Source: Streptococcus himalayensis
GTDB lineage: Bacteria > Bacillota > Bacilli > Lactobacillales > Streptococcaceae
Reading direction: 5' to 3'
Length of the DNA: 64,000 nt
NCBI RefSeq assembly: GCF_001708305.1
Contig: NZ_CP016953.1
Location: forward strand, 577,501-641,500
Under the pieces are notes generated by a model, which was not told where the DNA came from, searched no databases, and was given only the letters and a program-made list of their open reading frames with translations. This document shows positions 10,421 through 51,361 of this stretch, piece after piece (position 1 is the first letter of the stretch; each line of letters starts with the position of its first letter). The translations under genes and the position numbers were made by a program.

Positions 10421-13400
10421 TTAGTCAAACTTACTTTCCTTGATAGCGACTAAACGCTCACCAAATTGCTGCAAACTCTCAAGGATTTCATATTCCTTTT
10501 TACCACGCACATCAAATATAATTTCCAACAGCCCCTTTTCTTCTGCCATGCGTGCCTTTAAATTCGTCTGAGATAAGGCTTCAAAATAATCCTGAGTCAA
10601 AAAGAATTGCTGGGCCATTTTTTCAAAGCGAATACGAATCGTATGATCCTTACGATCTGCCAAGAGGACAAAGGATTTATCAAAATATGACTTGAGTAAG
10701 CCAATTTCTAATAGGTAAGCTACAACATCTGGGTAGTCTCCGAAGCGGTCTATCAACTCATCCTGGAGTTGCTCATAGTTTACACGATTGTCAATCTCTC
10801 GAATACGTTTGTAAATTTCGATTTTTTGACGCTCATCAGAGATATACTCACTCGGCAAATAAGCATCGATTTGAAGAGAGAGCTCAGCATTACTTTTCTG
10901 ACGCTTCTCTTCCTTCCCTTGCTTCCGCAAAATAGCCTCTTCCAGTAATTGGGAATACATTTCAAATCCGACTGAATCAATAAATCCTGATTGAGATTTT
11001 CCAAGGATATTTCCAGCTCCGCGAATTGACAAATCCCTCATGGCAATCTTAAAGCCAGAACCTAATTCTGTAAACCCTTTGATTGCTTCGAGACGTTTTT
11101 CAGAAACCTCGGTCAGAGATTTATCAGGACGATACATGAGATAGGCATAAGCGATACGATTGCTGCGTCCAACTCGACCACGTAGTTGATACAAGGTTGA
11201 CAAGCCCATGTGATCTGCATTTTCGATAAACAGAGTATTAGCATTGGGAATATCCACCCCTGTTTCAATAATTGTAGTCGTTACTAAAATATCATATTCG
11301 CCATTGATAAAGTCAAGGAGGGTATTCTCCAAACGAATTTCCGTCATCTGCCCATGCACATAACCAATGGAGGCTTCTGGAATCAATTCTTTTAACTCAG
11401 AAACCTTTTGCTCAATTGTGTCAACCTTGTTGTAAAGATAGTAAACTTGTCCACCACGATCCATTTCACGAAGAACAGCATCCCGAATAACCGTTGGATT
11501 GGTTTCTAACACATAAGTCTGAACTGGGTATCGATTAGTAGGAGGGGTTTCAATCACCGATAAATCACGAATTCCCAACATGGACATATGCAGTGTACGC
11601 GGAATAGGAGTGGCCGTTAGCGTCAAAACATCAATTTTGGTTTTTAACTCTTTCAATTTCTCCTTATGTTTTACCCCAAATCGCTGCTCTTCATCAATAA
11701 TCATAAGTCCTAAATCTGCAAATTCAACATCTTTTGATAACAGACGATGGGTTCCTATCAAAATATCGACCTGGCCTTTTTTTAATTTTTCAAGTGTTTC
11801 TTTCTGCTCGGACTTACTTCGAAAGCGACTCAAGACATCCACATTTACCGCAAAATTTTCAAATCGTTCCTTAAAATTTGAATAATGCTGCTGAGCCAAA
11901 ACTGTCGTAGGAACCAAGATTGCCACCTGTTTATGATCATTGACAGCTTTGAAAGCTGCTCTCATTGCCACCTCGGTCTTCCCAAATCCTACATCTCCGA
12001 CCAACAACCGATCCATGGGACTGCTACTTTCCATGTCCTTTTTGATCTCTTGAACACTACGAAGCTGATCCTCCGTTTCAACGTATGGAAAATCGTTGTC
12101 AAATGCTAATTGAGCATCGTCATCTTTTGAAAATTGGAATCCCTCTAATTGACTGCGCTCTGCATACAACTTAATCAAATCATCGGCAATATCCTCAACC
12201 TGCATCCGAACTTTTTGCTTAGTTTTTTGGAAACGCCCATCATTTAATTTATTGATTTTGGGAACTTTCCCATCGCTTGCTACATATTTGGATAAGGTAT
12301 TAATCTGCTCAACAGGAATCGAAATCCGATCTGCATTTTGGTACTGAATGCTAACATAATCACGGTGAACTCCTGAGATTTCAATGGTTTCAATTCCTAA
12401 ATACTGACCAATTCCATGGACTTGATGAACGACATAATCTCCTTTTTCCAGTTCGTTATAATCTTTTAGTCTCTCTGCATTTGAAATCTGTTGTCGACGA
12501 ACACGACGTTTTATTTTCTTCTGAAATATCTCAAATTCTGTAATCAGAACAATCTTCTCATCAACAAATTGAAATCCTTGAACAAGACTTCCAGCAATTA
12601 ACTGAACAGCATCTCGATAAATATTCTCCTCTTTTAGATAATCAAGATCAATTGCATACTCCTGTAAATGCTGCTGTAAACTTTGTAAACTTGAATCAGA
12701 ACTTGCCTGCAGGATAACAGTATAGCCTGACTTCCGATACCTAGCAATCTCATCCTTTAGGAGAGAAAATTGACTGAAAAATTCCTGCATGGGATATTGA
12801 TTAAACTGGTATAGAGTATCAAATTTCAGATTTCCTAATCCTTTATGAAAATTAGAAAAGAAAGTTGCTGGTTTATAGTTCCGATAATCTTTATAATTAC
12901 TGGCAAAATAGATTTGAGTTGACAAGGCTCTACTCTTTTGTAAATCTTCTGTCAATAAATTTGCAACCTCCAACTCAAAACGAGCATGTTGGTCCATAAT
13001 TTTTTGAAAATCATCTAAAAAAACAGGAGCATTTTTAGGAAGATAATCTTGAATCGTCCACTGCTTTTCATAAAAGAAGGAGAGAAATTTTCTCAAATCT
13101 GCGTGTGGTTTTCGATCACGACTACTGGTCAAAACTTCTTCTAAATAGGATTTTAAAGTTGGATCCACCTGCTTACTCAGCTCTTTTTCCAGTCTTTCGC
13201 TTCCCCTCTGGTAATCGTCTTCACCTAACAACAACTCCGTCATCGGATGAATTATAATCCTATCGATATTCTCCAAAGAACGCTGACTATCAGCATCAAA
13301 TCGTCTAATTCCATCAATCTCATCACCAAAAAATTCAATACGATAAGGATACTCTTCTTCCAGTTCAAAAATATCAAGAATATCTCCTCGTAAACTAAAT

Positions 13401-13924
13401 TCACCCTGACTCAACACTTGATTGACACGATTGTAACCCATACAGGATAATTGATTGACAATAGTGTCAACAGAAAATTCTAATCCCACTTCAAGGGATA
13501 AAAGAAATTCCTGCAAACGCTTCGGATTTGGAAGCAAAAGACGACTGGCTGATAAATTGGTAACTAGGATTCCTTTCTTTTGAGAATCTTGCAAAAAATG
13601 AAGAGCTGATAAACGAGCAACTTGTTTTTCTTTTGAGGAGAAAACAAACTCTGCTAAAGGAGTATCATCGGCTAAGAAAGGATAGACAAATTCTTCCCCT
13701 AATAAACTAAGCAAATCACTGACCAAGCGTTCCGCTTCATTTTGAGTTGACGTTAAGACCAATAGTTTATCATTTTCATCCAAACTCGCTGCCATCGTAA
13801 TCGCTTTGGTAGAGGAAGCAAGACCTAAAATCAATTGACGACTGGCAGTCTGTAAATTCCTTTTCCAGTCGTTAATTTGTTGATTTTGTTGAAATAAATC
13901 TACTATGTTCATGTGTTTATCCAT
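10421..13924 (-). CDS. mfd: transcription-repair coupling factor Mfd
   Basis: Large ATP-dependent translocase that removes stalled RNA polymerase and recruits UvrA to template-strand lesions. The 1167-residue length is standard. The N-terminal UvrB-like region is followed by the RNA polymerase interaction domain starting about [14 protein letters not shown], then helicase motifs [11 protein letters not shown] (Walker A), [11 protein letters not shown] (DEEQ box) and the QLRGRVGRS motif VI, and a C-terminal TRCF domain. It overlaps pth by 8 nt. Two palindromes of the TTKACA-N4-TGTMAA family lie inside it. Confidence 0.98.
10779..10794. repeat. TTKACA-N4-TGTMAA palindrome in mfd
   Basis: TTTACA-CGAT-TGTCAA. 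One of 14 exact matches to the same 16-bp pattern in this window; function unknown. Confidence 0.6.
13455..13470. repeat. TTKACA-N4-TGTMAA palindrome in mfd
   Basis: TTGACA-ATAG-TGTCAA, perfectly symmetrical outside the four-base spacer; extends by A on the left and C on the right. Confidence 0.6.
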
Positions 13925-14486
13925 TGTAGCGTTGCATCAGCTTCTCAAATTGAGGATCTTGTAAATAATCATTGACACAATTGTCAACCTTATCTAAGGT
14001 CTGTAAAATCGTTATAACATCTTCTGAATCAAATTTTCCAAGTACATGATGGACAACGGTCATTCCTTGCTTAGGGCGACCAATCCCAATTTTGATTCGT
14101 TTGAAATCTTGAGTTCCGATGTGTTTAATAATACTCTTAATCCCATTGTGTCCGCCCGCTGAACCTTTAGCTCGCAAACGAATTTTGCCAACCTCCATAT
14201 CTAGATCATCATAAATCACTAATAAATCTTCTACGTCCAGACCATAGTAAGAAAGCAGAGCGTGAACTGCCTTTCCAGATTCATTCATAAATGTCACTGG
14301 TTTGACAAAATAAATCTTTTCACCATTCATAAAGATAGTTGCAATCTCTGCTTGGAAAATTTTATCTGTTGTAAAACTACCATTTAATTTCTTTACAATC
14401 TTGTCAACCAACATAAATCCAACATTGTGCTTTGTTTCCACATATTTATCTCCAGGATTTCCTAGACCCACAATCATTTTTGTCAT
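13917..14486 (-). CDS. pth: peptidyl-tRNA hydrolase
   Basis: Releases tRNA from peptidyl-tRNAs that drop off ribosomes. The 189-residue protein begins [12 protein letters not shown], has the catalytic His20 in KHNVGF, the YDDLDM segment near residue 93 and the GSAGGHNG motif that follows it. The length is typical. It is coupled to mfd by an 8-nt overlap, an order conserved across Firmicutes. Two dispersed palindromes sit within it. Confidence 0.97.
13972..13987. repeat. TTKACA-N4-TGTMAA palindrome in pth
   Basis: TTGACA-CAAT-TGTCAA, perfect outside the spacer. Confidence 0.6.
14392..14407. repeat. TTKACA-N4-TGTMAA palindrome in pth
   Basis: TTTACA-ATCT-TGTCAA, 405 bp from the other pth copy. 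Confidence 0.6.
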
Positions 14487-14506
14487 TTTTTCTCCTTTTA
14501 CAATAC

Positions 14507-14538
14507 CAAAACGAGGCTGGGATAATCTATCCCAACCT
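14507..14538 (-). terminator. terminator after ychF
   Basis: On the minus strand GGTTGGGATA-GAT-TATCCCAGCC forms a 10-bp stem (one G-U pair) followed by TCGTTTT, between ychF and pth. Confidence 0.7.
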
Positions 14539-14588
14539 AGAAAACTATTCCTAGCATCCTGCTCATACTAGACAGGTAGTCGTCTCAT

Positions 14589-17960: not shown

Positions 17961-18053
17961 TGTGGAAAAGTATCCAGATGCTGAGTACATCAAGATTTTG
18001 CGCGTGTTTAAAAATTGTGGAAAAAGTAAGGTGGAATTCAAAAGTTATCCACA
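17961..18053. promoter_or_regulatory. DnaA boxes between dnaA and dnaN
   Basis: TGTGGAAAA at 17961-17969 and 18016-18024, and the perfect consensus TTATCCACA at 18045-18053. The last lies directly after the dnaA stop. Together with the boxes upstream of dnaA this gives the bipartite layout often seen at Firmicutes origins. Confidence 0.75.
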
Positions 18054-18054
18054 G

Positions 18055-19416
18055 TTAATTGATTTTCTTTTTGATGCTTTCAATTTCAAGACGCAAAGTA
18101 TCATCAGTTTCCAGCCACTTTTTAATCTTATCGTAGGCATGCATGACCGTGGTATGGTCTTTTCCTCCAAATTCCCGTCCAATTTTAGGAAGACTGTTAT
18201 CGGTCATCTCGCGGGCGAGATACATAGCTACTTGACGAGCCTGAACGATATTTTGAATTCGTCTGCTTCCCTTCATTTCTTTGACGCTAACTCCGTAGAA
18301 ATTTCCAACTTCTGTTTGGATTTTCTCGATAGGAATAACAAGGATTTGACTGGCATCTTGTTTTCTAGCTCGAATCGCTTTTGCTGCGACATCAATCGTG
18401 ATTTCCTTTATTTGATGAACTTTGGCAATCAAACTGATATCATTTAAAGCACCTTCTAAATCACGGACATTTGAATCAAACTGACCAGCCAAATATTCCA
18501 ATGTATCATTGGGAAAATGATAGGGAAGTTTTTCAGTTTTGTTCAGTAGGATTGCAACACGTGTGTCAAAATCAGGAGGAGTGATGTTTTGGGTTAATCC
18601 CCATTTAAAGCGCGTCACCAGTCGTTCTTCCAAATTATCGAGGTGGTCTGGACTTCGGTCACTGGTCAAGACAATCTGTTTATTATCCCCATGCAGGCTA
18701 TTAAAGGTATTGAAGAATTCTTCTTGGGTAGAGACTTTTTTTCCACCTAAAGATTGAATATCGTCAATCAAAAGGAGATCAAGATTACGGTAGGTTCTCT
18801 TGAATTTGTCCATTTCTCCCAGCCTTAAATGATCTAGAAAATCATTGATAAAGGTTTCAGCTGGGATGTATTTGACCCGTGCGTTAGGGATATTTTCTAA
18901 TATTTGATTGCCAATAGCATGTAGTAAATGAGTTTTTCCAAGTCCTGGACCTCCATAGATAAAGAGAGGATTATAGGTGGTTGCAAGATCTTCTGATACA
19001 GCTAGTGCTGCAGCCTTAACCCATTCATTGCCAGGCCCTTGGACAAAATTATCAAAGGTATATTTTTCTTTGAGGCCTGTTTTTAGAGGAGGGAGCTGTT
19101 CGAGTTGATAGCTTGCACTTGGGCTAGAGCTCTCTGTCAGACTGTTTTCTTCGGGGTTAGAAACCTCTTCATCACTAAAGACATAGTGAGCACTAATTTC
19201 TTGGTTAAAAATTTCAAAGCCTGCTGTAATAATGACATCTGCCAGATTTTGAGTCCAAAATAGCTCCTTGACAGGAGTATCAAGGAAAATAGTTGCTTTA
19301 CTCTCTCGAATACTTAGCAACTTTGCCTCAGCTATAAAATAGCTATATGTTGTAGACGTAATTTTTTCTTTGGCTAAGAGTAGAACCCTTTGCCAAAACT
19401 CTTCTTCTTTTGTCAT
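18055..19416 (-). CDS. dnaA: chromosomal replication initiator DnaA
   Basis: AAA+ initiator that binds DnaA boxes and melts oriC. The 453-residue protein has the N-terminal helicase-loading domain, Walker [12 protein letters not shown] in the first part of the AAA domain, Walker B LLIDDIQ, and the C-terminal DNA-binding domain with the signature [14 protein letters not shown]. Flanked on both sides by DnaA boxes, so autoregulation is likely. Confidence 0.99.
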
Positions 19417-19627
19417 CGGAACCTCCTTTGCTAATAGTGAGTTTTCTTATTGTATCATAAAATCTTTTAGTTTTCCACAGGATAATTATACCACAAACTT
19501 TTAAAGTTTTCCACAGCTTGTGGAAACAAATTCACAGTGTGTGCTTCTGTTTTCCACAGCTTGTGGAAATTAAAGAGAAAACTTGGTATAACGGTATTTT
19601 TCTCGTGTATAACTCTGTGCAGAGACG
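19417..19627. other. oriC: DnaA-box cluster between dnaA and parB
   Basis: Five DnaA boxes in about 100 bp: TTTTCCACA at 19471, 19507 and 19550, with opposite-strand partners TGTGGAAAC at 19519 and TGTGGAAAT at 19562. The last two pairs form TTTTCCACAGCTTGTGGAAA palindromes 43 bp apart. AT-rich DNA lies on both sides, and the dnaA promoter must also be here. Location next to dnaA with parB on the other side is the standard streptococcal origin. Confidence 0.9.
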
Positions 19628-19659
19628 AAAAAAAATAACAGCCTTATTTGAAGCTGTTA
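19628..19659 (-). terminator. terminator overlapping the parB stop
   Basis: On the minus strand AACAGC-N10-GCTGTT is followed by ATTTTTTTT. It overlaps the last codons of parB and insulates oriC from parB transcription. Confidence 0.8.
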
Positions 19660-20411
19660 ATAATTCTTTGATATTCTTCAAGATTTGAAAATGAAATCGA
19701 GAGGGTTCCATTTTGCTCCTTTTGGCTACGAATCTTAATCTGAACCTCGACCCCCAATTTTTTCCGAAGTTTCTCTTCCTCTGCTTGGATAAATTGAGAT
19801 TTTTGATTGGTCTTCTTGTTTAATGTTGAGGTCTGGATAGCCTTCTCTAGCCATCTGACAGAAGGGGCTTCTTTTTCGATAATTTGAAACCAGTGTTCCT
19901 GTTCCTCTTTTTTTAAGGGAATTAAGACACGCGCGTGTGCTTGGGATAACCGTCCATCTTTAACGGATTTTTGAATGTCATCAGGTAGGGCCAGTAAACG
20001 AAGAATATTGCTAATATAAGGACGAGACTTTCCTATGCTTTCTGCAATTTCTTGATGTGTCAATCCTCTGTCAATGAGATGTTGATAGGACTCGGCTTCT
20101 TCGATAGGATTGAGATTTTCTCTTTGTAAATTTTCAATGATTGCATGCTGGATCATGTCATCATCGCTCAACTCCTTGATAATAGCTGAAATTTTTGTCA
20201 ATCCAGCCAGTTTGGCTGCTCGAAATCGTCTTTCTCCTGCTAGTAATTCATAGCCGATGATATTAGACTTTCGAACAATAATTGGTTGGATAATGCCATT
20301 TTCTCGGATAGATTGGGCTAATTCTTGTAATTTTTTAGGGTCAAATTCTTTACGAGGTTGATAAGGATTGACTTGAATATCGCTTAACGGGATTTGTTGA
20401 TAATGTTCCAT
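19644..20411 (-). CDS. parB: chromosome partitioning protein ParB (Spo0J)
   Basis: CTP-dependent clamp that loads at parS and recruits SMC to the origin. The 255-residue protein has the N-terminal ParB motif (NPYQPRKEF), the box II GERRFRAAK with the CTP-binding arginines, the HTH region (THQEIAESIGKSRPYISNILRLL) and a short C-terminal dimerisation domain. No parA is next to it, as expected for streptococci, which lack a cognate ParA here. Two perfect parS cores and one near-match lie in this window. Confidence 0.97.
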   Translation of the reverse strand: MEHYQQIPLSDIQVNPYQPRKEFDPKKLQELAQSIRENGIIQPIIVRKSNIIGYELLAGERRFRAAKLAGLTKISAIIKELSDDDMIQHAIIENLQRENLNPIEEAESYQHLIDRGLTHQEIAESIGKSRPYISNILRLLALPDDIQKSVKDGRLSQAHARVLIPLKKEEQEHWFQIIEKEAPSVRWLEKAIQTSTLNKKTNQKSQFIQAEEEKLRKKLGVEVQIKIRSQKEQNGTLSISFSNLEEYQRIINSFK

Positions 20412-20430
20412 ACGTAATTAGCATAACACA

Positions 20431-20471
20431 CCTTTACGATTCTGTAAAGGTGTGTTGACATGATTGTAAAG
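20431..20471. repeat. two adjacent palindromes between htrA and parB
   Basis: CTTTACG-ATTC-TGTAAAG (one mismatch) at about 20432-20449 is followed by TTGACA-TGAT-TGTAAA at 20455-20470. The second is an exact member of the TTKACA-N4-TGTMAA family. They occupy most of the 62-bp gap upstream of parB, so they could be an operator for parB or a transcript hairpin after htrA; no T-run follows. Confidence 0.6.
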
Positions 20472-20473
20472 GA

Positions 20474-21649
20474 TTAAGATAAGTCCTGGGTTGATTTGGT
20501 TAATGTGATAGAAACTGTTTTTTCTTTTCCATTTCGGTAAAGGGTGATAGAAATCTCATCTCCAATACTATGCTTGTAAAGGGCGGATTGGAGGTCAGTG
20601 GTGGAAGAAATTTCTTGGTCGTCAATTTTGGTAATGACATCATATTTCTCTAATTTTCCTTCAGCCGGCATCCCTGTTTGAGCAGAGCGGACAATGACTC
20701 CATTTCTGATCTTATCAGGAAGATTGAGACGAGCTAAATCAGAGCTGGTAATATGGCTCATATCAATCATTTGGATTCCAAGTGCTGGACGGATGACGCT
20801 GCCATTTTCTTCTAACTGTTTGATGATATTTTGAACATCGTTGGCTGGGATTGCAAAACCAAGTCCTTCGACAGAATTTTGTCCATCTGTTGCAATCTTA
20901 CTAGAATTGATTCCAATGACTTGTCCTTGGATGTTGATGAGAGGACCTCCAGAATTTCCTGGGTTGATTGCTGTATCGGTTTGAATGGCTTGTGTCGAGA
21001 TGGCTTGTCCGTCTTCTGCTCTTAGGGATACGGTTCTATTTAAACTAGAGACAATGCCCTGTGTAACGGTATTGGCATAATCTGAGCCAAGGGGGCTTCC
21101 AATCGCAATAGCAGTTTCTCCGACAGTCAGATTGTCTGAATCACCGAATTCAGCGACAGTATCAACTTCCTCAGAGCTAATACGCACAACAGAAATATCT
21201 GAATAAACATCTGTTCCAACGATGTCACCTGCTACTTTCTTGCCATCTGCTAGACGAATATCTACTTTAGAAGCACCATTGATAACGTGCGTATTGGTCA
21301 CTAAATAGGCATATTTTCCTTCTTTTTTATAAATAACGCCAGATCCCTCGCTAGCCACTTGTTGGGAAGAATCAGCATTGTCATTGCCAAATAGAAAACC
21401 TTGCTTGTTCGTTTCAGCATAAGTAATGACAGATACAACTGCATTTTTGACTTTATCCACAGCTTCTGACGTTGAGGTTGTATTCTTGTAACTAGTCGGA
21501 ACAGTCTTTCCAGCAGTAGTCGTTGTTGTGGTGGACTGCTTAGGGGATGGATTCGTCAGATAGGTTCCTGCCACTCCTCCGACAAATCCGACCACAAGAA
21601 CAGTGAGTAGTTGCATGATTTTTTTGAAGAAATTTGAAGAATGTTTCAT
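20474..21649 (-). CDS. htrA: surface serine protease HtrA (DegP family)
   Basis: Membrane-anchored quality-control protease that degrades misfolded exported proteins; in pneumococcus it also cuts the competence pheromone. The 391-residue protein has an N-terminal membrane anchor (residues about 12-30), a low-complexity Thr stretch, the catalytic triad in TNTHVING (His), VYSDISVV (Asp) and NPGNSGGPL (Ser), and one C-terminal PDZ domain. A CiaR box lies upstream at the expected distance. The gene order rlmH-htrA-parB is conserved in streptococci. Confidence 0.97.
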
Positions 21650-21679
21650 ATCTTCCTCCTGTGATTTTCAATTAATGAA

Positions 21680-21712
21680 AGTATAGTAAAGGTAACTTAA
21701 TTATAACTTAAA
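21680..21712 (-). promoter_or_regulatory. htrA promoter with CiaR box
   Basis: On the minus strand TTTAAG-TTATA-ATTAAG (21712-21696) is followed after exactly 10 nt by the -10 TATACT (21685-21680). The known pneumococcal CiaR site is NTTAAG-N5-WTTAAG placed 10 nt before the -10, and htrA is the strongest CiaRH target there, so CiaR activation is very likely. Confidence 0.85.
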
Positions 21713-21721
21713 TCCCAAAAC

Positions 21722-21839
21722 TTTTCCACAAATTGTGGATAACTTTCTTGAAGTGTGAATTTCTCCAATATTGCTTGGGATTTTTAAAACATTTTTTTCT
21801 TATCCACATGTGAATAAGATGTGAAATCAGTGTGGATAT
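21722..21839. promoter_or_regulatory. DnaA boxes between htrA and rlmH
   Basis: TTTTCCACA at 21722, TGTGGATAA at 21734, TTATCCACA at 21800, TGTGAATAA at 21809 and TGTGGATAT at 21831. Two are perfect consensus boxes. They may titrate DnaA or link rlmH/htrA expression to replication; they are more than 2 kb from the dnaA-proximal cluster. Confidence 0.7.
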
Positions 21840-25332: not shown

Positions 25333-27921
25333 CTAGGAATGTCTGTTTGTCTGTCTGTTTTGCCATCGATGGTAGAAGATAAATAATAGAATGCCAGAAA
25401 AGAAGCAAATACTCCCTATTTTGAACCCTTGAGGGATAAAATGAAGAGTGACTATCCCATTTCCTTTTTTGACATCTACTTTCATCAATCCTTTTTGAAC
25501 TTTCTGAATAGGTAATGGTTTGCCGTCTTGAGTGGCTGTCCATCCCTTATCGTAGGGAAGAGTAAAGATAAGAGAGGTATCTTTCTGAGCTTGGTAGTGA
25601 GCTGTTACGGTATTTTTGGAAGATATTACAGTTACATCTTGCTCTTTGATTGTATCAATTGCTTCTTGGAAATGTTCCGTATTGACACGATAAAATTCAG
25701 GAGTGTTGAAGGAAACATGCTTATTGTCTGGAAAGGAAATTCGAATGGTTGCCGTTGTTTTCTCTTTAAAATATCCTAAATTAAAGAAGGGGAAGACATT
25801 GTTGAGAGAATAGTGCATTGTTTGATCATTGACAGTGATGTCGACTGCTTCTTTGTCACTATTTGAAAAAGTCAGATGTGCAAGTGTGAGATAGACTTGG
25901 CTGTTTGCTGGGATATCTATTGTGTAGCTGGCACTGGCTATATGCTCATCGTTAGAGGCATCAGCATTGACAGTGATTCGGCCGTTAATCTCTTGTGTAG
26001 CTTGTGAATCTTTAGGGGTTAGTCGATAGTAATACTGCAAATCCAGACCGGATAATTGATTGAGAAACTTACTTTGATTGTCTAAGGTTAGGTTATCGAA
26101 CTTGACATCTTTGTAACGATTGTTTGACAGTATTGCAAGGGGGAGGGAATTTTTATTTTCAAATAAGGTCAAGTGCTCTGCTGTTTCAAGCGGTGTAAAT
26201 CCGTATTTGTTAGGATTTGATTCAGAAATGTTATACTTAATAGCCATTAAGCTATCCATGAGAATACTGTTATTTTGATAGCGGAGATTGAGATTGGTCC
26301 CAGAAGATTTGAATCCTAATTTGTCCATTGTAGAACTTGCCGCAGTATTTCGGACAGAGGAAAATTGTGAAATGCCATTGTAGTTGTATTTCATACTGTC
26401 ATTTCCAGTTTGGGCTACTAGTTTTTCAGTTCGGAAAAATTCGTCATTCTCTTGTTTGGCAAAATTTACGAGTTTGTTCATTTCTTGGCTATCTTTCGCA
26501 TAGGAATCTCGACTGGAAAATACCCATTCAGAGGCGATACCATCGATTTGATAAAAAGTGTTAAGTCCCAATTCAAATACTGCAAAGAAGAGACTGGCTA
26601 GCAGAAAGATGTGTTTTGGAAGAGATTTTTTAAAAAAGGTTGTAAAGATAAGGAGATAGGCAACGAGGAATTCGACCGTAAGAGTGTACTGAACCATTCC
26701 TAGAAAATCATAGTGTTGCCGATAGATAAAGGTTGCTAGAAAGCCGATGAACAATAAGAAAAATGAAAGGAGAAAATGCCACAGGTGAATGTCTTTTAAG
26801 CGTTCTAAACTTTCAGCTGCCATATAAAGAATGACCACTGAAAGGAGCCAAGAATAGCGATGGAGAAACATATTTGGCGCGTGCATACCCTGCCAGAATA
26901 AATCTAAAGGAGAGAGATAAAAACTTGCAATGAGAATGCCAAGGAGCAATCCATATAAAAGTTTCACGTGAAACTGGATCTGTTTTAGGAAGAAAAATAG
27001 AACAGCAAAGATGAGTGGAATCAATCCAACATAAATCATAGGAATGGATCCGTATTTTGTGGTGTCAAAAGAGCCGATGAAATTTTTAGCGAAGAAATCA
27101 AGATACCAACTATCTTCTGTCCATAATGTTGACACCTTTGTCAACTTCTCACCGTGGGTTCTCAAATCTAAAAATGTGGGAAGAAGCATAATCATGCTGG
27201 TCAATCCAGCTAAAAGGGAGACAAAGAAAAAATCTCCAAAGCTTTTTATTCGCTGTTTAAAATCCCAAGATAGTTGAACTAGATACCAGAGAGTTAAGAA
27301 AATAGCGACCATGTATCCAAAATAATAATTTTGGATAAATAAGATTGACAGACTTGTAAAGTAGAGAACGCGTTTTCTTTGAGTAATCAATCGGTGTAAA
27401 CCAAGTAGGATAATAGGAAAAAGGATAAAGACATCTAACCAAGTTTTAATTTCTAATTGGCTAGTTGCAAAACTCATCAGTGCATAGGATGTTGACAGTA
27501 AGAGTAAATGTGGATGAGAGATGTGTTTAAAAATTCCCTTTAAGCTCATAAAACTGGTCAATCCCATAAGTCCAAATTTAAGAATTGTCAATAAATAGAC
27601 TGCATCTGGCATACTATGAACATCGAAAAAATAAACCAAAGGAGATAGAAAACTGCCTAAATAGTAGCTGGATAAAGCATAGAAATTAAGACCTAGTCCA
27701 CTGGTGAAGGTATAAAAAAGGCTATCAGAACCATGGAGGATATTTCGAAGTGTGGTATCGAAAATCACGTATTGATGAAAACCATCGCCAAGTAAGGGAG
27801 AGGTCGAACTGCCCCAATAAATTCCTTGACTAGCATAGGAAACGGTCATAATGAGTGCAGGAATGAGAAAAGCTGCAGGATAATGCCCATGTTTTTTGAG
27901 AATGTTGTAACTATTTTTCAT
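25333..27921 (-). CDS. YfhO-family membrane protein
   Basis: An 862-residue protein, from ATG 27921, with an N-terminal set of about 12 membrane segments and a large exported domain (residues about 470-830), ending with one more membrane segment. It begins with a cytoplasmic basic stretch, then LIPALIMTVSYASQGIYWG, a YfhO-family marker. YfhO proteins resemble GT-C glycosyltransferases and have been linked to lipoteichoic acid glycosylation in Gram-positives. The TTG at 27933 is a less likely start. It contains a perfect parS core and two dispersed palindromes. Confidence 0.88.
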   Translation of the reverse strand: MKNSYNILKKHGHYPAAFLIPALIMTVSYASQGIYWGSSTSPLLGDGFHQYVIFDTTLRNILHGSDSLFYTFTSGLGLNFYALSSYYLGSFLSPLVYFFDVHSMPDAVYLLTILKFGLMGLTSFMSLKGIFKHISHPHLLLLSTSYALMSFATSQLEIKTWLDVFILFPIILLGLHRLITQRKRVLYFTSLSILFIQNYYFGYMVAIFLTLWYLVQLSWDFKQRIKSFGDFFFVSLLAGLTSMIMLLPTFLDLRTHGEKLTKVSTLWTEDSWYLDFFAKNFIGSFDTTKYGSIPMIYVGLIPLIFAVLFFFLKQIQFHVKLLYGLLLGILIASFYLSPLDLFWQGMHAPNMFLHRYSWLLSVVILYMAAESLERLKDIHLWHFLLSFFLLFIGFLATFIYRQHYDFLGMVQYTLTVEFLVAYLLIFTTFFKKSLPKHIFLLASLFFAVFELGLNTFYQIDGIASEWVFSSRDSYAKDSQEMNKLVNFAKQENDEFFRTEKLVAQTGNDSMKYNYNGISQFSSVRNTAASSTMDKLGFKSSGTNLNLRYQNNSILMDSLMAIKYNISESNPNKYGFTPLETAEHLTLFENKNSLPLAILSNNRYKDVKFDNLTLDNQSKFLNQLSGLDLQYYYRLTPKDSQATQEINGRITVNADASNDEHIASASYTIDIPANSQVYLTLAHLTFSNSDKEAVDITVNDQTMHYSLNNVFPFFNLGYFKEKTTATIRISFPDNKHVSFNTPEFYRVNTEHFQEAIDTIKEQDVTVISSKNTVTAHYQAQKDTSLIFTLPYDKGWTATQDGKPLPIQKVQKGLMKVDVKKGNGIVTLHFIPQGFKIGSICFFSGILLFIFYHRWQNRQTNRHS
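26960..26975. promoter_or_regulatory. parS ParB site in yfhO
   Basis: AGTTTCACGTGAAACT contains the perfect 14-bp parS core GTTTCACGTGAAAC. It is 7.4 kb from oriC on the parB side. Confidence 0.85.
27129..27144. repeat. TTKACA-N4-TGTMAA palindrome in yfhO
   Basis: TTGACA-CCTT-TGTCAA, extended to an 18-bp GTTGACA-N4-TGTCAAC palindrome. Confidence 0.6.
27345..27360. repeat. TTKACA-N4-TGTMAA palindrome in yfhO
   Basis: TTGACA-GACT-TGTAAA, 216 bp from the previous copy. Confidence 0.6.
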
Positions 27922-32662: not shown

Positions 32663-32698
32663 GTAAACTATATTTACATATTTGTAAATATAGTTTAC
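32663..32698. repeat. nested palindrome before the GRP sugar transporter
   Basis: GTAAACTATATTTACA-TATT-TGTAAATATAGTTTAC is a perfect 16+16 inverted repeat. Its centre, TTTACA-TATT-TGTAAA at 32673-32688, is an exact member of the dispersed family. Two more TGTAAA half-sites follow at about 32704 and 32715, the last just before the ribosome site. This looks like an operator covering the promoter region of the next gene. Confidence 0.65.
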
Positions 32699-32730
32699 GA
32701 AGTTGTAAATATAATTGTAAAGGAGAAAGA

Positions 32731-33705: not shown

Positions 33706-33735
33706 AAAAAGATTGACAGTGATTGTCAATCTTTT
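33706..33735. terminator. terminator at the recF end
   Basis: AAAAGATTGACA-GTGAT-TGTCAATCTTTT stem with T-runs on both strands; the recF stop lies in it. The sequence resembles the dispersed palindrome but with a 5-nt spacer. Confidence 0.75.
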
Positions 33736-35404: not shown

Positions 35405-36652
35405 ATGGAATTAGTCACAGGGGTTCATCTCCATTTCATTTCTTCAGATAAGTATAAGACCAATCGTATCAAAATGAGATTTGCAGCACCGCTGTCTTCA
35501 AAAACGGTTGCTGGTCGTGTTTTGGCAGCAAGCATGCTTGAAACAGCAAATCTCCTGTATCCGACTTCCCAAACCTTTCGTGAGCGTTTGGCCACTCTTT
35601 ACGGAGCTACCTATTCGACTTCCGTAGCAAAAAGGGGAATGGTTCACTATGTGGATATTAATCTTTCTTTTGTTCGTGATTCTTTTTTAAGTCGGAAAAA
35701 TACCTTGACCGAAGAGATGTTAGAGTTTTTGAAGGCAAGTTTGCTACAGCCCCTAGTTGTAGAAAATGCTTTTGAAGAGTCAGCTTTTGCTATTGAAAAA
35801 AGAAATGTCTTGCTAGATTTAGAAGCGGAAATTGAAAATCATTTTTACCATGCTCATCGGGAGCTAAATCAGGTTTTTTATGAGCAGGAAGAGATGCAAA
35901 TTCCACGTATCGGAACGATTGATTTAATCAGCAAAGAGAATGCTCAAACGAGTTTTGAACAACTGCAATCCATGCTCAATCATGATCGGATTGATGTCTT
36001 TTTTATTGGAGATTTTAACGAAATCCAAGTGGTTGAATCGATGAAATCCTTTAACTTTACACCGAGAACACAAGCTTTACAGCTACAATATAGCCAGCCG
36101 ACGTCAAATATTGTCAGAGAAGGTTTGGAACAAAAAGACACAAATCAATCGATTATTGAGTTAGGTTATCATTTTTCTACGCAATATGGAGAGGACCAAC
36201 ACCTTGCTCTAATTGTGTTAAACGGTCTCTTGGGTGGCTTTTCTCATTCTAAGCTATTTGTCAATATTCGGGAGAAAGAAGGATTGGCTTATACGATTTC
36301 TAGCCAGATTGATATTTTTTCAGGTTTACTACGGGTTTACGCAGGAATTGACAGACTTAGTCGAACAAAAACGGTGAGTTTAATCCATCGTCAGATTTCA
36401 GATTTGAAAAAAGGAATATTCACGGATGAAGACCTGTCAACGACCAAGGAAATGCTAAAAAATACGTTGCTGATATCACTAGATAGGCAAAATACGTTGA
36501 TAGAGCGTGCCTATTTAAAAGCGGTCTTTGGGAGAAAATCCTTGTCAGCAACTGATTGGTTGACAAGTTTACAAGAAGTGTCAAGAGAAGATGTGATGGA
36601 AATTGCAAGTCAACTAAACTTGCAAGCAGTTTACTTCATGGAAGGAAAATAA
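35405..36652 (+). CDS. M16-family peptidase-like protein, non-catalytic partner
   Basis: 415 residues from ATG 35405, preceded by GAGGAG; an in-frame ATG 12 nt earlier is possible. The protein aligns in style with M16 peptidases (RFAAPLSSKTVAGRV, GLLGGFSHSKLFVNIREKEGLAY) but lacks HxxEH where it should be (the equivalent stretch reads LAASMLETANLLYP), so it should not bind zinc. M16B enzymes often work as active-inactive pairs, and the next gene overlaps its stop (TAATG). Conserved in streptococci upstream of the RodZ-like gene. Confidence 0.85.
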   Translation: MELVTGVHLHFISSDKYKTNRIKMRFAAPLSSKTVAGRVLAASMLETANLLYPTSQTFRERLATLYGATYSTSVAKRGMVHYVDINLSFVRDSFLSRKNTLTEEMLEFLKASLLQPLVVENAFEESAFAIEKRNVLLDLEAEIENHFYHAHRELNQVFYEQEEMQIPRIGTIDLISKENAQTSFEQLQSMLNHDRIDVFFIGDFNEIQVVESMKSFNFTPRTQALQLQYSQPTSNIVREGLEQKDTNQSIIELGYHFSTQYGEDQHLALIVLNGLLGGFSHSKLFVNIREKEGLAYTISSQIDIFSGLLRVYAGIDRLSRTKTVSLIHRQISDLKKGIFTDEDLSTTKEMLKNTLLISLDRQNTLIERAYLKAVFGRKSLSATDWLTSLQEVSREDVMEIASQLNLQAVYFMEGK

Positions 36653-37941
36653 TGGACGACATTCAGTTGAACAAACGAGAATATGCAGGTGTCGGAGAGA
36701 CTCTTTACAGAACAATTTTGCCAAATGGTTTACGACTTTTTTTAGTTCCAAAAGCGGATTTTCATGAGACTTACGGAATGATGACGACGCGATTTGGATC
36801 AATAGATACAGAGGTTATTGGCCAGGATGGAGAAGTAGTGACTTATCCGAATGGTATGGCACATTTTTTGGAACATAAATTATTTGAGGATGAAAACGGC
36901 CAAGATTTACTAAATGAGTTTGTAAAGCTAGGAGCAGAAAGTAATGCTTTTACAAGTTTTACAAAGACAAGCTATCTATTTTCAGCAACTAATCGTGTCA
37001 AGGAAAGTGTAAACTTACTGCAAACTCTTGTGTCAACGGGTCATTTTACATCTGATTCTGTGGAGAGAGAAAAGGGAATTATTGGTCAAGAGATTGAAAT
37101 GTACCAAGATGATCCAGATTACCGTTTATTTTCTCAAACCTTAGCAAATCTTTATCCTAACAGTCCCCTATCAGCAGATATTGCAGGTAGCCTAGATTCT
37201 ATTCAGCAGATTCAAGTGGATGATTTACAAGAGAATTTTTCTCTTTTTTATCACCCGTCTAATATGAGCCTCTTTCTTGTAGGAAATATAAATGTGCAAG
37301 AAGTTCTTGAATGGGTGCAAGAGACACAAGAATCCATTCACTATCCTCACAAGTATTCTTTTTCTCGTGCAGCAATACCTTTGAATCCGATTGTTGCAAC
37401 AGAAACGATGCGTATGGACGTTGCGACCCCTAAGCTGGCTATTGGATTACGGGGCAAGGATAAGATTGAAGATTATGAATTGTATCGCTATAAAATTGCT
37501 TTGAAATTATTATTTGCTATGATGTTTGGCTGGACTTCAAAACGATTTCAGCACTATTATGAAACGGGAAAATTGGACACATCTTTGACTTTGGAAGTAG
37601 AGGTTGAAAAAGAATTTCATTTTGTAATGCTTACAATGGATACCATGGAACCTCTATCGATTTCTCACCAAATGCGTTCGGCTATTCGTCAGTTTGCCAA
37701 GGATCAAGATGTTTCAGAAGAGCACCTAGATATTATTAAGAGTGAAATGTTTGGTGATTTTCTACATGGGTTGAATTCCTTGGATTATATTGCTACCCAG
37801 TATGAAACGCATGTAGACGGAGAAAATCTGTTTGATATGCCTAAAATTTTGCAGAGTATGAGTTTGACAGATGTATTAGAAATTGGGAAACGGTTTATAG
37901 AGCAGGCAGATGTTGTTGATTTTACCATTTTTCCTAAATGA
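36652..37941 (+). CDS. M16-family zinc metallopeptidase, catalytic subunit
   Basis: 429 residues with an intact inverted zinc motif HFLEH (in MAHFLEHKLFE, about residue 72) and the downstream Glu-containing helix (ESNAFTSFT). Substrate unknown. The start ATG overlaps the TAA of the partner gene, so the two are made together. An open frame extends further upstream but has no ribosome site. Confidence 0.87.
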   Translation: MDDIQLNKREYAGVGETLYRTILPNGLRLFLVPKADFHETYGMMTTRFGSIDTEVIGQDGEVVTYPNGMAHFLEHKLFEDENGQDLLNEFVKLGAESNAFTSFTKTSYLFSATNRVKESVNLLQTLVSTGHFTSDSVEREKGIIGQEIEMYQDDPDYRLFSQTLANLYPNSPLSADIAGSLDSIQQIQVDDLQENFSLFYHPSNMSLFLVGNINVQEVLEWVQETQESIHYPHKYSFSRAAIPLNPIVATETMRMDVATPKLAIGLRGKDKIEDYELYRYKIALKLLFAMMFGWTSKRFQHYYETGKLDTSLTLEVEVEKEFHFVMLTMDTMEPLSISHQMRSAIRQFAKDQDVSEEHLDIIKSEMFGDFLHGLNSLDYIATQYETHVDGENLFDMPKILQSMSLTDVLEIGKRFIEQADVVDFTIFPK

Positions 37942-37976: not shown

Positions 37977-38813
37977 ATGAGAAAAAAAACAATTGGCGAG
38001 GTGTTACGGTTAGCGAGGATTAACCAAGAGCTTTCCCTAGAGGATTTACAGGAAAAGACAGATATTCAGCTGGCTTTTTTAGAGGCGATGGAAGCGGATG
38101 AATTTGATACGCTTCCCAGTACTTTTTATGCCCGCTCTTTTTTGAGAAAATATGCATGGGCGGTTGATTTGGATGAACGAATTATCTTGGATGCTTATGA
38201 AGATGGTAGTATGATTGTTTACGATGAGATTGACATCAATATGGATGAAGATTTTCGCAGCCGAAAACGTCGAAAAAAAAGAAATTCTTTTTTGCCACTC
38301 TTTTATTTTTCCTTAGTTGCCATGGCAATTCTTGCCTTTGTGACAATCTATGTTTGGAATTATACCCAAAGACCCTCCAATCAAAACCGTGAACAAAGCT
38401 ATCAAATCGTCAGTCAAGAAGAGCAATCGAGTATGAGTTCGACTAGTTCTAGTCAGTCAGAAGCTAGCTCTAGTTCTGAACCTAAGGCTAGTCTAGAAGT
38501 TACAGGAGAGGGGAGTAACTTGACAGCAAGATTGACAGGAGTGTCAACACAAGCTAAACTAGAGCTCTCTGTGAAAGAGGTGACTAGCTGGGTGAGTGTA
38601 GCTGGAACAAGCTTGGAAAATGGGGTTACTCTTTCCCCAGAGAGTAAATCGGCAGCAACAGAATTGACATCTGGTGGAACGTACCTTGTCACTTTGGGCG
38701 TTGTCAGAGGGGTAGAAGTGTTAGTTGATGGCCAACAGCTAGATACCTCAGCCTTGACAGACTATGCTGGGACGATTACAATAACAGTAGAAAATAAAGG
38801 AAGTGAATCATGA
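37977..38813 (+). CDS. RodZ-like cytoskeletal membrane protein (YmfM)
   Basis: 278 residues: an N-terminal HTH-like domain (GEVLRLARINQELSLEDLQEKTDI), a basic stretch (RSRKRRKKR), one membrane segment near 103-123 and an exported Ser-rich linker followed by a DUF4115 domain. RodZ proteins connect MreB-type cytoskeleton or the cell-wall machinery to the membrane. Streptococci with round cells keep a RodZ that binds the PG synthesis complex. It overlaps pgsA by 4 nt. A dispersed palindrome lies in its 3' half. Confidence 0.86.
   Translation: MRKKTIGEVLRLARINQELSLEDLQEKTDIQLAFLEAMEADEFDTLPSTFYARSFLRKYAWAVDLDERIILDAYEDGSMIVYDEIDINMDEDFRSRKRRKKRNSFLPLFYFSLVAMAILAFVTIYVWNYTQRPSNQNREQSYQIVSQEEQSSMSSTSSSQSEASSSSEPKASLEVTGEGSNLTARLTGVSTQAKLELSVKEVTSWVSVAGTSLENGVTLSPESKSAATELTSGGTYLVTLGVVRGVEVLVDGQQLDTSALTDYAGTITITVENKGSES
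38532..38547. repeat. TTKACA-N4-TGTMAA palindrome in the RodZ-like gene
   Basis: TTGACA-GGAG-TGTCAA, preceded 12 nt upstream by another TTGACA half-site. Confidence 0.6.
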
Positions 38814-42561: not shown

Positions 42562-43212
42562 TTAGTTATTTTGATTTATGTTTAAATTGGTCAGAAATGT
42601 AAGTAAATCTTCAGGAGCTTCAAAGATTTCATCTGCTTGACAATTCTGTAAATCTTCTCTAGTTCCAAAACCCCATAGTACACCTAATGTCTGAATGCCA
42701 ACGTTTTTTCCGCCAATCATGTCAAATTTAGTGTCTCCGATAATGGCACATTCCTCCAAGGGAAGTTGATGTTCCGTAATTGCACGTTTGATAACATCAG
42801 TTTTATGGTAAGCAGTTGGAAGTGCTCCATAGATGGCTGTAAAGTAACTGTCAATGTTTAAATAGTCCAACATTTTGTGGGCCATGGGTTCATTTTTACT
42901 AGTTGTGATGTACAGATGATAGCCCAATTTTTTTAAAGAGGACAATAAATTTGTCAATCCTTTGTAAACCTCTACTTGATAAACTCCGTGTTTCTTATAG
43001 TAGATTCGAAAAGCATGGATAGCTTCTTGGATCCAATTCGCATCTCCAAAGGTTGAAAAGCTAACTTCCAAAGGAGGACCGATAAAGGTTTCAAGAATGG
43101 TGTCAGAAGGAATTGCTGTATCCATCCTTTCAAAAGCAGCTCTAAACCCAGCTTTGATGCCTGCGGAGCTATCGACGACTGTTCCGTCTAAGTCAAAAAA
43201 GAGATGTTTCAT
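42562..43212 (-). CDS. HAD-family phosphatase (phosphoglycolate phosphatase type)
   Basis: 216-residue HAD hydrolase with the nucleophile motif FDLDGTVVDSS near the N terminus, a cap domain, the ITTSKN motif II, and the IGDTKFDMIG motif. Substrate unknown; this branch includes phosphoglycolate and sugar phosphatases. It shares a base with the preceding histidine phosphatase gene, suggesting they act on related phosphate esters. Confidence 0.86.
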   Translation of the reverse strand: MKHLFFDLDGTVVDSSAGIKAGFRAAFERMDTAIPSDTILETFIGPPLEVSFSTFGDANWIQEAIHAFRIYYKKHGVYQVEVYKGLTNLLSSLKKLGYHLYITTSKNEPMAHKMLDYLNIDSYFTAIYGALPTAYHKTDVIKRAITEHQLPLEECAIIGDTKFDMIGGKNVGIQTLGVLWGFGTREDLQNCQADEIFEAPEDLLTFLTNLNINQNN

Positions 43213-43787
43213 CAGTGATCACCTTTTATTAGTATGTGTTCTGTAATGGATAGACAATCGAATTGATTAAATTCAAAGCAAATGATATGTGGCATTAGCG
43301 GCTTAATGCGTAGAAAATCTGTCAATCCGAAATCTTTCTTATAATAATGGAGTATGGTGGAAAGAGCTGTCCCATGACTGCCAATGACTATATTTTTTCC
43401 TTTATAATCTTGTAAACATTTTTGTAAAGCAGTAATGTTTCGAGTTTGTACCTCTTGGAGACTTTCTCCATTTGCTAATTTATAGGAGAAGTCTTTCCAC
43501 TGTTTTGCTGTAAAGCTATTAAAATCTTCAATCCATACATCATCAATCTTTCGTTCTCGAAAGTCTGAAATGGTTTGAAGGGGAAGGTTTTGAGATTCGG
43601 CAAAGGGCTTAACGGTGTCTACTGCTCGTTTTAAAGGGCTTGATAAAACAAGGTCAATTTGTTTATCGGCTAGAAAATCTGTTACAAGTTGACAATCTTG
43701 TAAACCTTTTGAGGAGAGTTCCCGAGTCCAATCATCATGGTTATCATAGTTTGGTTCGCAATGGCGAACAAAGTAGACAGTGGTCAT
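43212..43787 (-). CDS. histidine phosphatase superfamily protein
   Basis: 191-residue phosphoglycerate-mutase-like protein with the phosphohistidine motif FVRHCEPN at the N terminus (RHC rather than the usual RHG), VLSSPLKRAVDT and the later GSHGTALSTIL. The Gly-to-Cys change in RHG occurs in some family members and need not abolish activity. Substrate unknown. It overlaps sdaAA by 4 nt. Contains a dispersed palindrome. Confidence 0.84.
   Translation of the reverse strand: MTTVYFVRHCEPNYDNHDDWTRELSSKGLQDCQLVTDFLADKQIDLVLSSPLKRAVDTVKPFAESQNLPLQTISDFRERKIDDVWIEDFNSFTAKQWKDFSYKLANGESLQEVQTRNITALQKCLQDYKGKNIVIGSHGTALSTILHYYKKDFGLTDFLRIKPLMPHIICFEFNQFDCLSITEHILIKGDH
43689..43704. repeat. TTKACA-N4-TGTMAA palindrome in the histidine phosphatase gene
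   Basis: TTGACA-ATCT-TGTAAA, extended to GTTGACA-N4-TGTAAAC. Confidence 0.6.
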
Positions 43788-46234: not shown

Positions 46235-46251
46235 TGTAAACATAGTGTAAA
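46235..46251 (+). promoter_or_regulatory. WalR-like direct repeat
   Basis: TGTAAA-CATAG-TGTAAA fits the WalR box TGTWAH-N5-TGTWAH exactly. It lies between the LysM gene and mnmA, more than 350 bp before the next start, so the target is unclear. Confidence 0.35.
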
Positions 46252-46395: not shown

Positions 46396-46413
46396 GTTGA
46401 CAGTTTTGTCAAC
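46396..46413. repeat. 18-bp palindrome upstream of mnmA promoter
   Basis: GTTGACA-GTTT-TGTCAAC, perfect. It ends 23 bp before the -35 of the mnmA promoter and is a member of the dispersed family. Confidence 0.65.
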
Positions 46414-46428: not shown

Positions 46429-47727
<1,299 letters not shown>

Positions 47728-47757
47728 TACTTGTCAACTAAGTTTACAAAAAGAAAA

Positions 47758-48213: not shown

Positions 48214-48372
48214 TTATTTTCCTTTCTTTTTGGAATACAAACTAACCAAAATAAAATATAGAAGTAGAAAAATAATATAAATGTATCTAAGCTCATTATG
48301 TTGAGCTTCTATGTAAAGAATTACAGTTAATGTGCAAACTAATGAAGTTAAAATAAATAAACCATTGCTCAT
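48214..48372 (-). CDS. small membrane protein (52 aa)
   Basis: Not recognised. ATG 48372 has GGAG at 7-nt spacing, and a promoter TTGCAA-17-TATAAT lies upstream. The peptide has two hydrophobic segments (LFILTSLVCTLTVILYI at about 5-21 and YIYIIFLLLYFILVSLY at about 30-46), a short polar hinge and a basic tail (SKKKGK). The layout promoter, ribosome site, ORF supports a real gene; it could be a stress or membrane peptide. Confidence 0.55.
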   Translation of the reverse strand: MSNGLFILTSLVCTLTVILYIEAQHNELRYIYIIFLLLYFILVSLYSKKKGK

Positions 48373-48433
48373 AGTCTGTCTCCAATCATTCTCCTTTATT
48401 TGGATAGATACATATTAGGTATAATCTAAAGAT

Positions 48434-48462
48434 ATTATAGCATCTATATTTATTTTTTGCAA
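48434..48462 (-). promoter_or_regulatory. promoter of the small membrane protein
   Basis: On the minus strand TTGCAA (48462-48457), 17 nt, TATAAT (48439-48434). Confidence 0.6.
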
Positions 48463-48614
48463 CGCTTACCGTTGTATTTTCCTTGATTTTTTTGAAAATT
48501 CTGCTAGAATAATAATAGCAATCACTATGATGGTCAAAGCTCATAGGAATTGGACGTTTTTTGCGTGCAGTTTCTGAGGGTTTTGGCTCTTTTTGTGTAG
48601 AAAAGGAGACGTCT

Positions 48615-49085
48615 GTGGATTTTAGGTCAAGAAGCCAAAATCAGATTTTTGGAGTTCGAGCGACAGCACTCATTATGAGAGGCAATCGTCTATTCCTGTC
48701 TTATCGGAAAGAGACAGAAACATACTATACAATTGGTGGTGCAATTGAAGTGGGCGAATCAACAGAGGAGGCTGTTAGCCGAGAAGTGAAAGAAGAGCTT
48801 GGAATTGATGTTACCGTCAAGCAACTGGCTTTTATTGTTGAAAATGAGTTTACAGTGCTTGACAACAGAAAACCTCTTCATTTTCATAACATTGAGTTTC
48901 ATTATATTGTAGAATTCTCTGGAGAAATGCCTTCTCATATGATTGAAGAAAAATGGGCCTATCCTTGTTATTGGATAGATGTTGACAACCTTGTCAACGT
49001 AAATGTAGTTCCATCTTTCTTGAAAAACCATCTACCAAACTGGTCAGGAACAATGGAACATATTAGATTAAAGGAGAAAAAATGA
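48615..49085 (+). CDS. NUDIX hydrolase
   Basis: 156-residue protein from GTG 48615, preceded by AAAAGGAG. The NUDIX box is complete: G-A-I-E-V-G-E-x7-REVKEELGI (about residues 43-65). The family hydrolyses nucleoside diphosphates linked to other groups; the substrate here is unknown. It overlaps mnmG by 4 nt, so it is translationally coupled to a tRNA modification gene. A perfect 18-bp dispersed palindrome lies near its 3' end. Confidence 0.88.
48982..48997. repeat. TTKACA-N4-TGTMAA palindrome in the NUDIX gene
   Basis: TTGACA-ACCT-TGTCAA within GTTGACA-N4-TGTCAAC, 18 bp perfect. Confidence 0.65.
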
Positions 49086-50989: not shown

Positions 50990-51020
50990 AGAAAAGACAG
51001 AAAAAAGGTTATAAATCATA

Positions 51021-51055
51021 AAAAGCTGCAGGAGATCGCTTTCCCTGCAGTTTTT
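51021..51055 (+). terminator. terminator after mnmG
   Basis: AAAGCTGCAGG-N11-CCTGCAG followed by TTTTT. Confidence 0.85.
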
Positions 51056-51183
51056 ATAGTTGTTATCGTTAGGTATGATAAATATATAGGATTTGAAGGA
51101 AGTTCTTGGGATTCTCTCAAGAAATTATCAAGTAGAACTGGCAAGATGCCTGCAAAACGGCTGATGTTAGTCAAATCACTGTT

Positions 51184-51234
51184 GTTTACAATTAAGTTTA
51201 CAAATTTGTAAATCATGTAAATTTAATTGTAAAC
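51184..51234. repeat. large nested palindrome before gdpP
   Basis: GTTTACAATTAA at the left and TTAATTGTAAAC at the right pair perfectly (12 bp). Inside is GTTTACA-AATT-TGTAAAT (TTKACA-N4-TGTMAA at 51197-51212). The 498-bp gap between mnmG and gdpP contains no gene; it holds this element, a second copy and many TGTAAA half-sites. Confidence 0.65.
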
Positions 51235-51345
51235 TAGAATAGAAATCAAATAAACTGTTGAGATAAAAAATGATTGAAAAAGTTAAAAGCTTTGAAAATA
51301 AAGAATGAATATTCTTGAAATTGAACATTATTTTTGTAAACAGAA

Positions 51346-51361
51346 TTTACAATAGTGTAAA
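51346..51361. repeat. TTKACA-N4-TGTMAA palindrome before gdpP
   Basis: TTTACA-ATAG-TGTAAA, flanked by TGTAAA half-sites at about 51335 and 51370 in the same 40 bp. Confidence 0.6.

Follow-up and report, generated by a model that had tools for sequence, protein, structure and literature searches.

Why does a short palindrome recur around the replication origin of Streptococcus himalayensis, inside genes of unrelated function as well as between genes, and which protein reads it? We addressed this in a 64,000-nucleotide stretch of the S. himalayensis chromosome (contig NZ_CP016953.1, positions 577,501 to 641,500; hereafter the window), where the original prediction had described a dispersed 16-bp palindrome, TTKACA-N4-TGTMAA, bound by a chromosome-organizing or widely titrated protein or else spread as a mobile or mutational motif. 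We find that the underlying unit is a 7-bp half-site, TGT[A/C]AA[C/G/T] (TGTMAAB), of which the palindrome represents one arrangement; around dnaA the half-site recurs in outward, inward and direct orientations with a spacing close to the helical turn. This is almost certainly a real, selected, origin-confined protein-binding array, and the protein that binds it is probably RocS, a streptococcal chromosome segregation protein.

The palindrome is clustered at the origin

The window contains 15 exact palindromes, compared to a mean of 0.04 and a maximum of 1 in 100 dinucleotide-preserving shuffles, an excess well beyond AT-biased chance, as had been claimed. All 14 sites listed originally are exact, and a 15th, at 42637, had been overlooked; ten of the 15 are genic and five intergenic, in agreement with the earlier nine and five. 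The spacer is 4 bp in every copy and its sequence varies, again as first described, while the "several" sites said to extend to the 18-bp form GTTGACA-N4-TGTCAAC are three (27128, 46396 and 48981). The copy at 32673 is also the core of a near-perfect 36-bp inverted repeat (32663-32698) between guaB and a GlcU-like gene.

A whole-genome count, which had been suggested as a check, gave 18 exact palindromes in the 2,275,471-bp host chromosome and none for the reversed-pattern control. Fifteen of the 18 lie inside the window, none of them more than 32 kb from the start of dnaA (spanning -8.6 to +31.9 kb relative to it; binomial P = 1e-19 for clustering within 40 kb), so the description "dispersed" needs correcting: many copies are indeed spread across 10779 to 51361, but genome-wide they are clustered near dnaA. 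The remaining three are at 33,892, 714,974 and 715,154, the last two forming an outlying pair 180 bp apart and about 118 kb from dnaA. When one mismatch is permitted, the excess shrinks (79 in the host, 48 in the control). The gene that anchors these distances, which we take to be dnaA from gene order and DnaA-box context, has one strong match in each of 16 genomes; window GC skew turns at about 16-18 kb, and four DnaA boxes lie at 18045-21808.

Similar clustering was observed in other streptococci. Across five genomes with full copy lists (in two named ones the record start stands for dnaA, which lies within about 1.5 kb of it), the proportion of palindromes within 40 kb of dnaA was 15 of 18 in the host, 12 of 16 in S. 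anginosus J4206, 11 of 15 in S. sanguinis 2908, 12 of 14 in G112 and 10 of 11 in G151, with clustering P values of 1e-19 to 1e-13. S. pneumoniae 19F carries eight, six of them on the 29-kb dnaA contig, and G012 is less clustered, its 14 copies being spread over the genome with a few in the first 0.2 Mb, the part that includes dnaA. A family-wide search of 335 genomes, 284 of them from the host genus, found 6-30 palindromes in 281 of the 284 (controls, 0-7); the palindrome-poor members are G434 (none), G435 (one) and G110 (two). Within genus g59, G396 and G402 contain 552 and 115 exact copies, compared to 4-19 in the other 16 genomes; these are probably a species-specific repeat and not an origin array.

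We also asked whether individual sites are conserved in relatives, covering six of the ten coding sites of the window. In a protein-guided alignment of seven motif-bearing streptococci, the palindrome at mfd codon 1044 is exact in all seven, that at pth codon 167 in five and that at codon 192 of a PgfM-like gene in six; because G112 and J4206 are close relatives, these counts are partly redundant. With the local protein sequence and each genome's own codon use taken into account, the motif had a probability of 0.004-0.022 in each of 15 cases. Many sites turn over, since those at mfd 152, pth 27 and PgfM-like 264 are exact in only one or two of the seven. Origin clustering, genus-wide recurrence and indifference to gene function thus support the proposal of a chromosome-organizing DNA-binding protein, while the rarity of the motif beyond the stretch from about -10 to +40 kb around dnaA and the three codon-fixed sites among the six argue against a widely titrated, mobile or mutational motif.

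The repeat unit is a helically phased half-site

De novo palindromes near dnaA in G405 (genus g60) proved to be an inward N5 form of the half-site (10 observed, 0.4 expected), and we therefore adopted the half-site as the unit. Gaps between TGTMAA/TTKACA pairs, counted over 15 Streptococcus origin regions (785 kb), peak at N4 (99), N14 (28) and N25 (21) in the outward orientation, at N5-6 (17 and 23), N16 (16) and N26 (9) in the inward, and at N3 (30), N5-6 (63 and 45), N15 (49) and N26 (19) in the direct, so that the preferred spacings correspond roughly to one, two and three helix turns. The outward N4 count is not independent, because the half-site was originally derived from the palindrome; the inward and direct peaks are independent of how it was defined. 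In 12 Streptococcus genomes the phasing power was 228 (best-fit period 11.2 bp, phase free per orientation), compared to at most 12.9 when the same sites were placed at random 30 times, and pairs 15-70 bp apart alone gave 71. Values in other genera, which had no random controls of their own, were 118 (g63), 62 (g60), 41 (g55), 25 (g61) and 12 (g59). The most likely explanation of such spacing in any orientation is that one face of the helix carries the half-site copies.

The half-site itself has distinct preferences. Among 474 paired Streptococcus half-sites, position 4 is A in 47%, C in 48% and T in 5%, and position 7 is A in 5%, compared to a background of 35%; A at position 7 is likewise rare (7-8%) in g63, g60 and g55. 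With TTKACA fixed and the opposite half-site at N4, enrichment is 53-fold for TGTAAA, 48-fold for TGTCAA and 15-fold for TGTTAA.

Taking as helical pairs those spaced outward N4-5, inward N5-6 or direct N5-6, the window holds 34, compared to 0.3 in shuffles: 15 outward N4, 2 outward N5, 8 direct N6, 5 direct N5, 2 inward N5 and 2 inward N6. Thirteen of the 34 are intergenic, in a window of which 13% is non-coding, and none falls in 1-10778 or 51362-64000. The features are as follows.

10779-51361: origin domain, 34 phased TGTMAA half-site pairs (pair scan versus shuffles)
10779-10794: outward N4 palindrome, mfd codon ~1044, codon-conserved 7/7
11419-11436: direct N6 pair
12663-12680: direct N6 pair
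12939-12955: direct N5 pair
13455-13470: outward N4 palindrome in mfd
13960-13987: inward N6 plus outward N4 (three half-sites) in pth; palindrome at codon ~167, 5/7 exact
14392-14407: outward N4 palindrome in pth
18055-19416, minus strand: dnaA (presumed), origin anchor
19644-20411, minus strand: parB
20058-20074: direct N5 pair in parB
20443-20470: inward N6 plus outward N4, parB-htrA intergenic
27129-27144: outward N4 palindrome, 18-bp form, PgfM-like gene
27345-27360: outward N4 palindrome, PgfM-like gene codon ~192, 6/7 exact
32673-32688: outward N4 palindrome, guaB/GlcU-like gene intergenic
32704-32721: direct N6 pair, intergenic
33713-33729: outward N5 pair, intergenic
36568-36584: outward N5 pair
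36996-37013: direct N6 pair
38520-38547: direct N6 plus outward N4 (three half-sites), rodZ
42637-42652: outward N4 palindrome, the site overlooked earlier
42838-42854: direct N5 pair
42952-42968: direct N5 pair
43411-43428: direct N6 pair
43689-43704: outward N4 palindrome
46235-46251: direct N5 pair, intergenic
46397-46412: outward N4 palindrome, 18-bp form, intergenic
47732-47748: inward N5 pair, intergenic
48982-48997: outward N4 palindrome, 18-bp form
51185-51233: composite array (direct N6, outward N4, direct N6), intergenic
51335-51361: composite array (inward N5 plus outward N4), intergenic

Pooled over 16 streptococci, pair density is 2-9 per 10 kb between -10 and +40 kb of dnaA and falls to zero past +40 kb (45 kb covered); at -40 to -30 kb, where about 20 kb is covered per bin, there is a second peak, of 2-4.5. 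Off-origin controls gave one pair in 507 kb around 80 named rocS loci (many from close relatives), none in 40 kb of G405 and none in 20 kb of the host at 1.70 Mb.

RocS is the probable reader of the array

RocS was found in each of 32 genomes tested for arrays, and all 32 of their origin regions (19 from Streptococcus, 13 from five other genera) exceed their own shuffle mean, some narrowly, at 0.3-11.5 pairs per 10 kb. Four RocS-less, dnaA-holding stretches of 20 kb each (G414, G383, G198 and G206) contain no pair, although this is a small test; G212, also with zero pairs, was excluded from this set as its stretch lacks dnaA. Since the 14-bp parS core is present in three of these four stretches, the arrays do not simply come with parS; no parB gene was found in those 20-kb stretches.

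RocS has a MerR-type winged helix-turn-helix at its N terminus and a membrane-binding helix at its C terminus, together with a coiled coil and DUF536. The predicted DNA-binding domain is similar to those of pSK1 Par and RacA, and the top Foldseek match of the RocS model is RacA (5i44; E = 0.03). RocS is reported to drive segregation, to bind membrane and DNA, and to be synthetic lethal with loss of parB or smc (PMC11500499, PMC13042908). It interacts with ParB in published work and is reported to localize at the origin (PMC12014288), and an S. mutans equivalent is described as suppressed by a dnaA mutation (PMC13404961). The published dissociation constant (KD) is 34 uM with a 50-bp dnaC probe, in which we saw no TGTMAA by eye. 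The pneumococcus is said to segregate its chromosome without ParA, with ParB and SMC dispensable and RocS as the main driver (PMC11500499). No specific RocS site is announced in the titles and abstract openings of the literature surveyed, where Mercy et al. 2019 is represented through citing papers, and the literal motif strings are absent from the literature searched.

We infer from these observations that RocS binds the half-site and tethers the origin. The palindromes are likely the conspicuous fraction of a centromere-like domain that spans some tens of kilobases at the origin and nucleates cooperative RocS binding. In such a mechanism, the half-site array would nucleate binding, many RocS heads would occupy the newly replicated origin domain, and oligomerization through the coiled coils together with the amphipathic tails would tether that domain to the midcell membrane, such that sister origins could separate without ParA. 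On balance, we favor the broader view that Streptococcaceae possess a second centromere beside parS: an orientation-free, phased TGTMAAB array of about 50 kb, read by membrane-bound RocS, in a one-protein partition free of ParA and ATPase in which DNA may be tethered by cooperative, filament-like occupancy of one face. A defined, origin-confined target would explain how RocS finds the origin and would provide a centromere to move, delete or reconstitute, making the RocS mechanism directly testable; reading a phased array regardless of orientation would also be out of the ordinary for a MerR-type domain.

Several observations weigh against RocS as the reader. RocS has been described as a non-specific DNA binder (PMC7022226). 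The co-occurrence of array and RocS is confounded with phylogeny, and arrays are sparse in some RocS-bearing genomes (one pair in G435, two in 20 kb of G038, three in 14 kb of G130; the lowest by density are G435, G410, G415, G038 and G434). No palindrome lies within 3 kb of rocS in the 80 named loci. G110, G434 and G435, one clade and a single event, have a changed recognition helix (N23T/N23D) and have nearly lost the palindrome, yet G110 and G434 retain 13 phased half-site pairs (1.1 expected); because this clade still uses the half-site in phased pairs, the helix change left the half-site unaltered. G455 has Asn23Ser yet keeps the palindrome, and palindromes are few in g61 and in some g63 genomes despite their NNR helix. 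A g59 genome has Lys at RocS residue 23, and phasing power in g59 (12.0) does not exceed the random values of the Streptococcus control, nor does that of the G110 clade (9.7). Avoidance of A at position 7 is also less strict in g59 (26% A) and g61 (21% A).

The near-loss of the palindrome with a kept half-site in the changed-helix clade is ambiguous, and we dropped altered helix specificity as the cause of motif loss because the clade keeps the half-site. The helix of G434 and G435 reads RQAVNDR, and matches to the RQALNNR pattern lay elsewhere. Nesting of the clade inside Streptococcus has an SH-like approximate likelihood ratio test (SH-aLRT) support of 99, and the approximately unbiased (AU) test against outside placement is marginal (P = 0.044). 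Its mfd and pth positions carry no motif, and de novo palindromes near dnaA in G110, G434, G435 and g63 comprised only DnaA- or parS-like pairs and T-rich hairpins as clear cases.

Other leads were set aside. Autoregulation of rocS via nearby sites was rejected given the zero count in the named loci and a total of three copies, in two loci, among 16 others spanning about 3 kb each. Plasmid relatives of RocS were considered as an orthogonal test: 44 plasmid records match, and the six read carry another helix, SKQAIQYHIK; the fetched stretches of these six homologues contain no exact palindrome, and no RocS relatives were found in phage records or viral contigs. A palindrome in G387 (g59), CTGTCAGTACTGACAG, with 25 copies around dnaA, was first taken for an altered RocS site and was dropped as an unrelated repeat because G387 has 326 core copies and 16 other g59 genomes have 0-692; the core is present in 294-692 copies genome-wide in G387, G392, G398 and G400 and in 0-40 in 13 other g59 genomes. 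An unrelated repeat family was seen in the 140 kb around dnaA of G410 (C33), where a TGTTTC-N3 inverted repeat occurs 12 times (0.05 expected). In g61, rocS lies about 5 kb from dnaA (G410 C33, G411 C29, G412 C142), unlike in the Streptococcus genomes placed.

Alternative readers of the array

The arrays might instead bind another chromosome-organizing protein of Streptococcaceae, such as a nucleoid-associated or occlusion factor, which we consider unlikely although it is the strongest of the alternatives. The unchanged half-site in the clade with the changed RocS helix fits this explanation; moreover, RocS was the sole candidate protein compared across genomes, and other proteins also changed on that clade's long branch (0.64). 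However, RocS is a known origin-localized segregation protein of streptococci for which no site is known, the similarities of its domain are to phased-repeat and centromere binders, and array presence matches RocS presence in all 36 origin regions judged.

A concentration of VicR/WalR boxes (TGTWAH-N5-TGTWAH) at the origin is improbable. The direct N5 pairs, 5 of the 34 in the window with 29 arranged otherwise, do fit WalR spacing, and WalR is reported to act on dnaA in S. aureus (PMC10746227). The original prediction had set WalR aside because its sites are direct; that ground fails, since the half-site recurs as phased direct and inward repeats too, but the half-site positions still speak against WalR/VicR. 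S. mutans VicR is described as preferring A at position 7 and A or T at position 4 (PMC4168254), whereas the array half-sites avoid A at the former and take C, and rarely T, at the latter. Outward and inward pairs also misfit such boxes. Lastly, WalR reportedly occurs throughout the Firmicutes (PMC9210968), yet RocS-less origin regions are array-free, with the caveat that a crude motif look found no WalR in those 20-kb stretches.

Variant ParB/parS or Noc-type sites are very improbable: the arrays lie at the origin and ParB is encoded within their domain, but the sites that resemble canonical parS (two mismatches to TGTTTCACGTGAAACA) are separate, at 7272, 26960 and 39426, inside or just outside the domain, three of the RocS-less regions carry parS cores without arrays, and the variable N4 center is unlike parS, with no TGTTTCACGTGAAACA-like palindrome. 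TTGACA is the -35 promoter consensus, and some g59 genomes carry a different palindrome as a genome-wide repeat, but promoter elements, terminators or a mobile repeat are hardly credible either, given that -10-like boxes 16-18 bp downstream are no commoner after paired (10/439) than unpaired (46/1598) TTKACA and that the sites are mostly genic, with variable spacers and flanks, origin-confined and in three cases codon-fixed.

Comparison with known systems

Returning to RocS as the probable reader, we propose that the array works like a centromere, with its assignment to the RacA kind or the Par kind hinging on binding. RacA of Bacillus subtilis, like RocS, has a MerR-type winged helix-turn-helix and a coiled coil, and its sites lie around the origin. 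It is described as binding repetitive centromere-like sequences and anchoring DNA at a cell structure (PMC11500499), but it differs in its GC-rich site, reportedly bound as a symmetric dimer (PMC5859096), as opposed to AT-rich TGTMAA in all orientations, and in its sporulation role and DivIVA anchor. The DUF536 single-protein partition system of pSK1 Par differs in being plasmid-borne; in Par-type partition the repeats adjoin the par gene, a feature not seen within 3 kb of rocS in the 80 named loci. BldC of Streptomyces also has a MerR-like winged helix-turn-helix and is reported to oligomerize on helically phased repeats (PMC5859096), but these are 9-bp head-to-tail repeats bound by a transcription regulator, compared to steps of 10-12 bp in every orientation here. 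The WalR/VicR box shares the TGT-A core and, with the direct N5 pairs, the 5-bp spacer, and differs from the arrays in its half-site preferences, their origin confinement and their inverted arrangements. ParB-parS is alike in its short sites clustered around oriC, many of them genic, and in its segregation role, which for the arrays is proposed; it differs in sequence, and the arrays consist of more numerous phased half-sites that, in the regions tested, are found only where RocS is.

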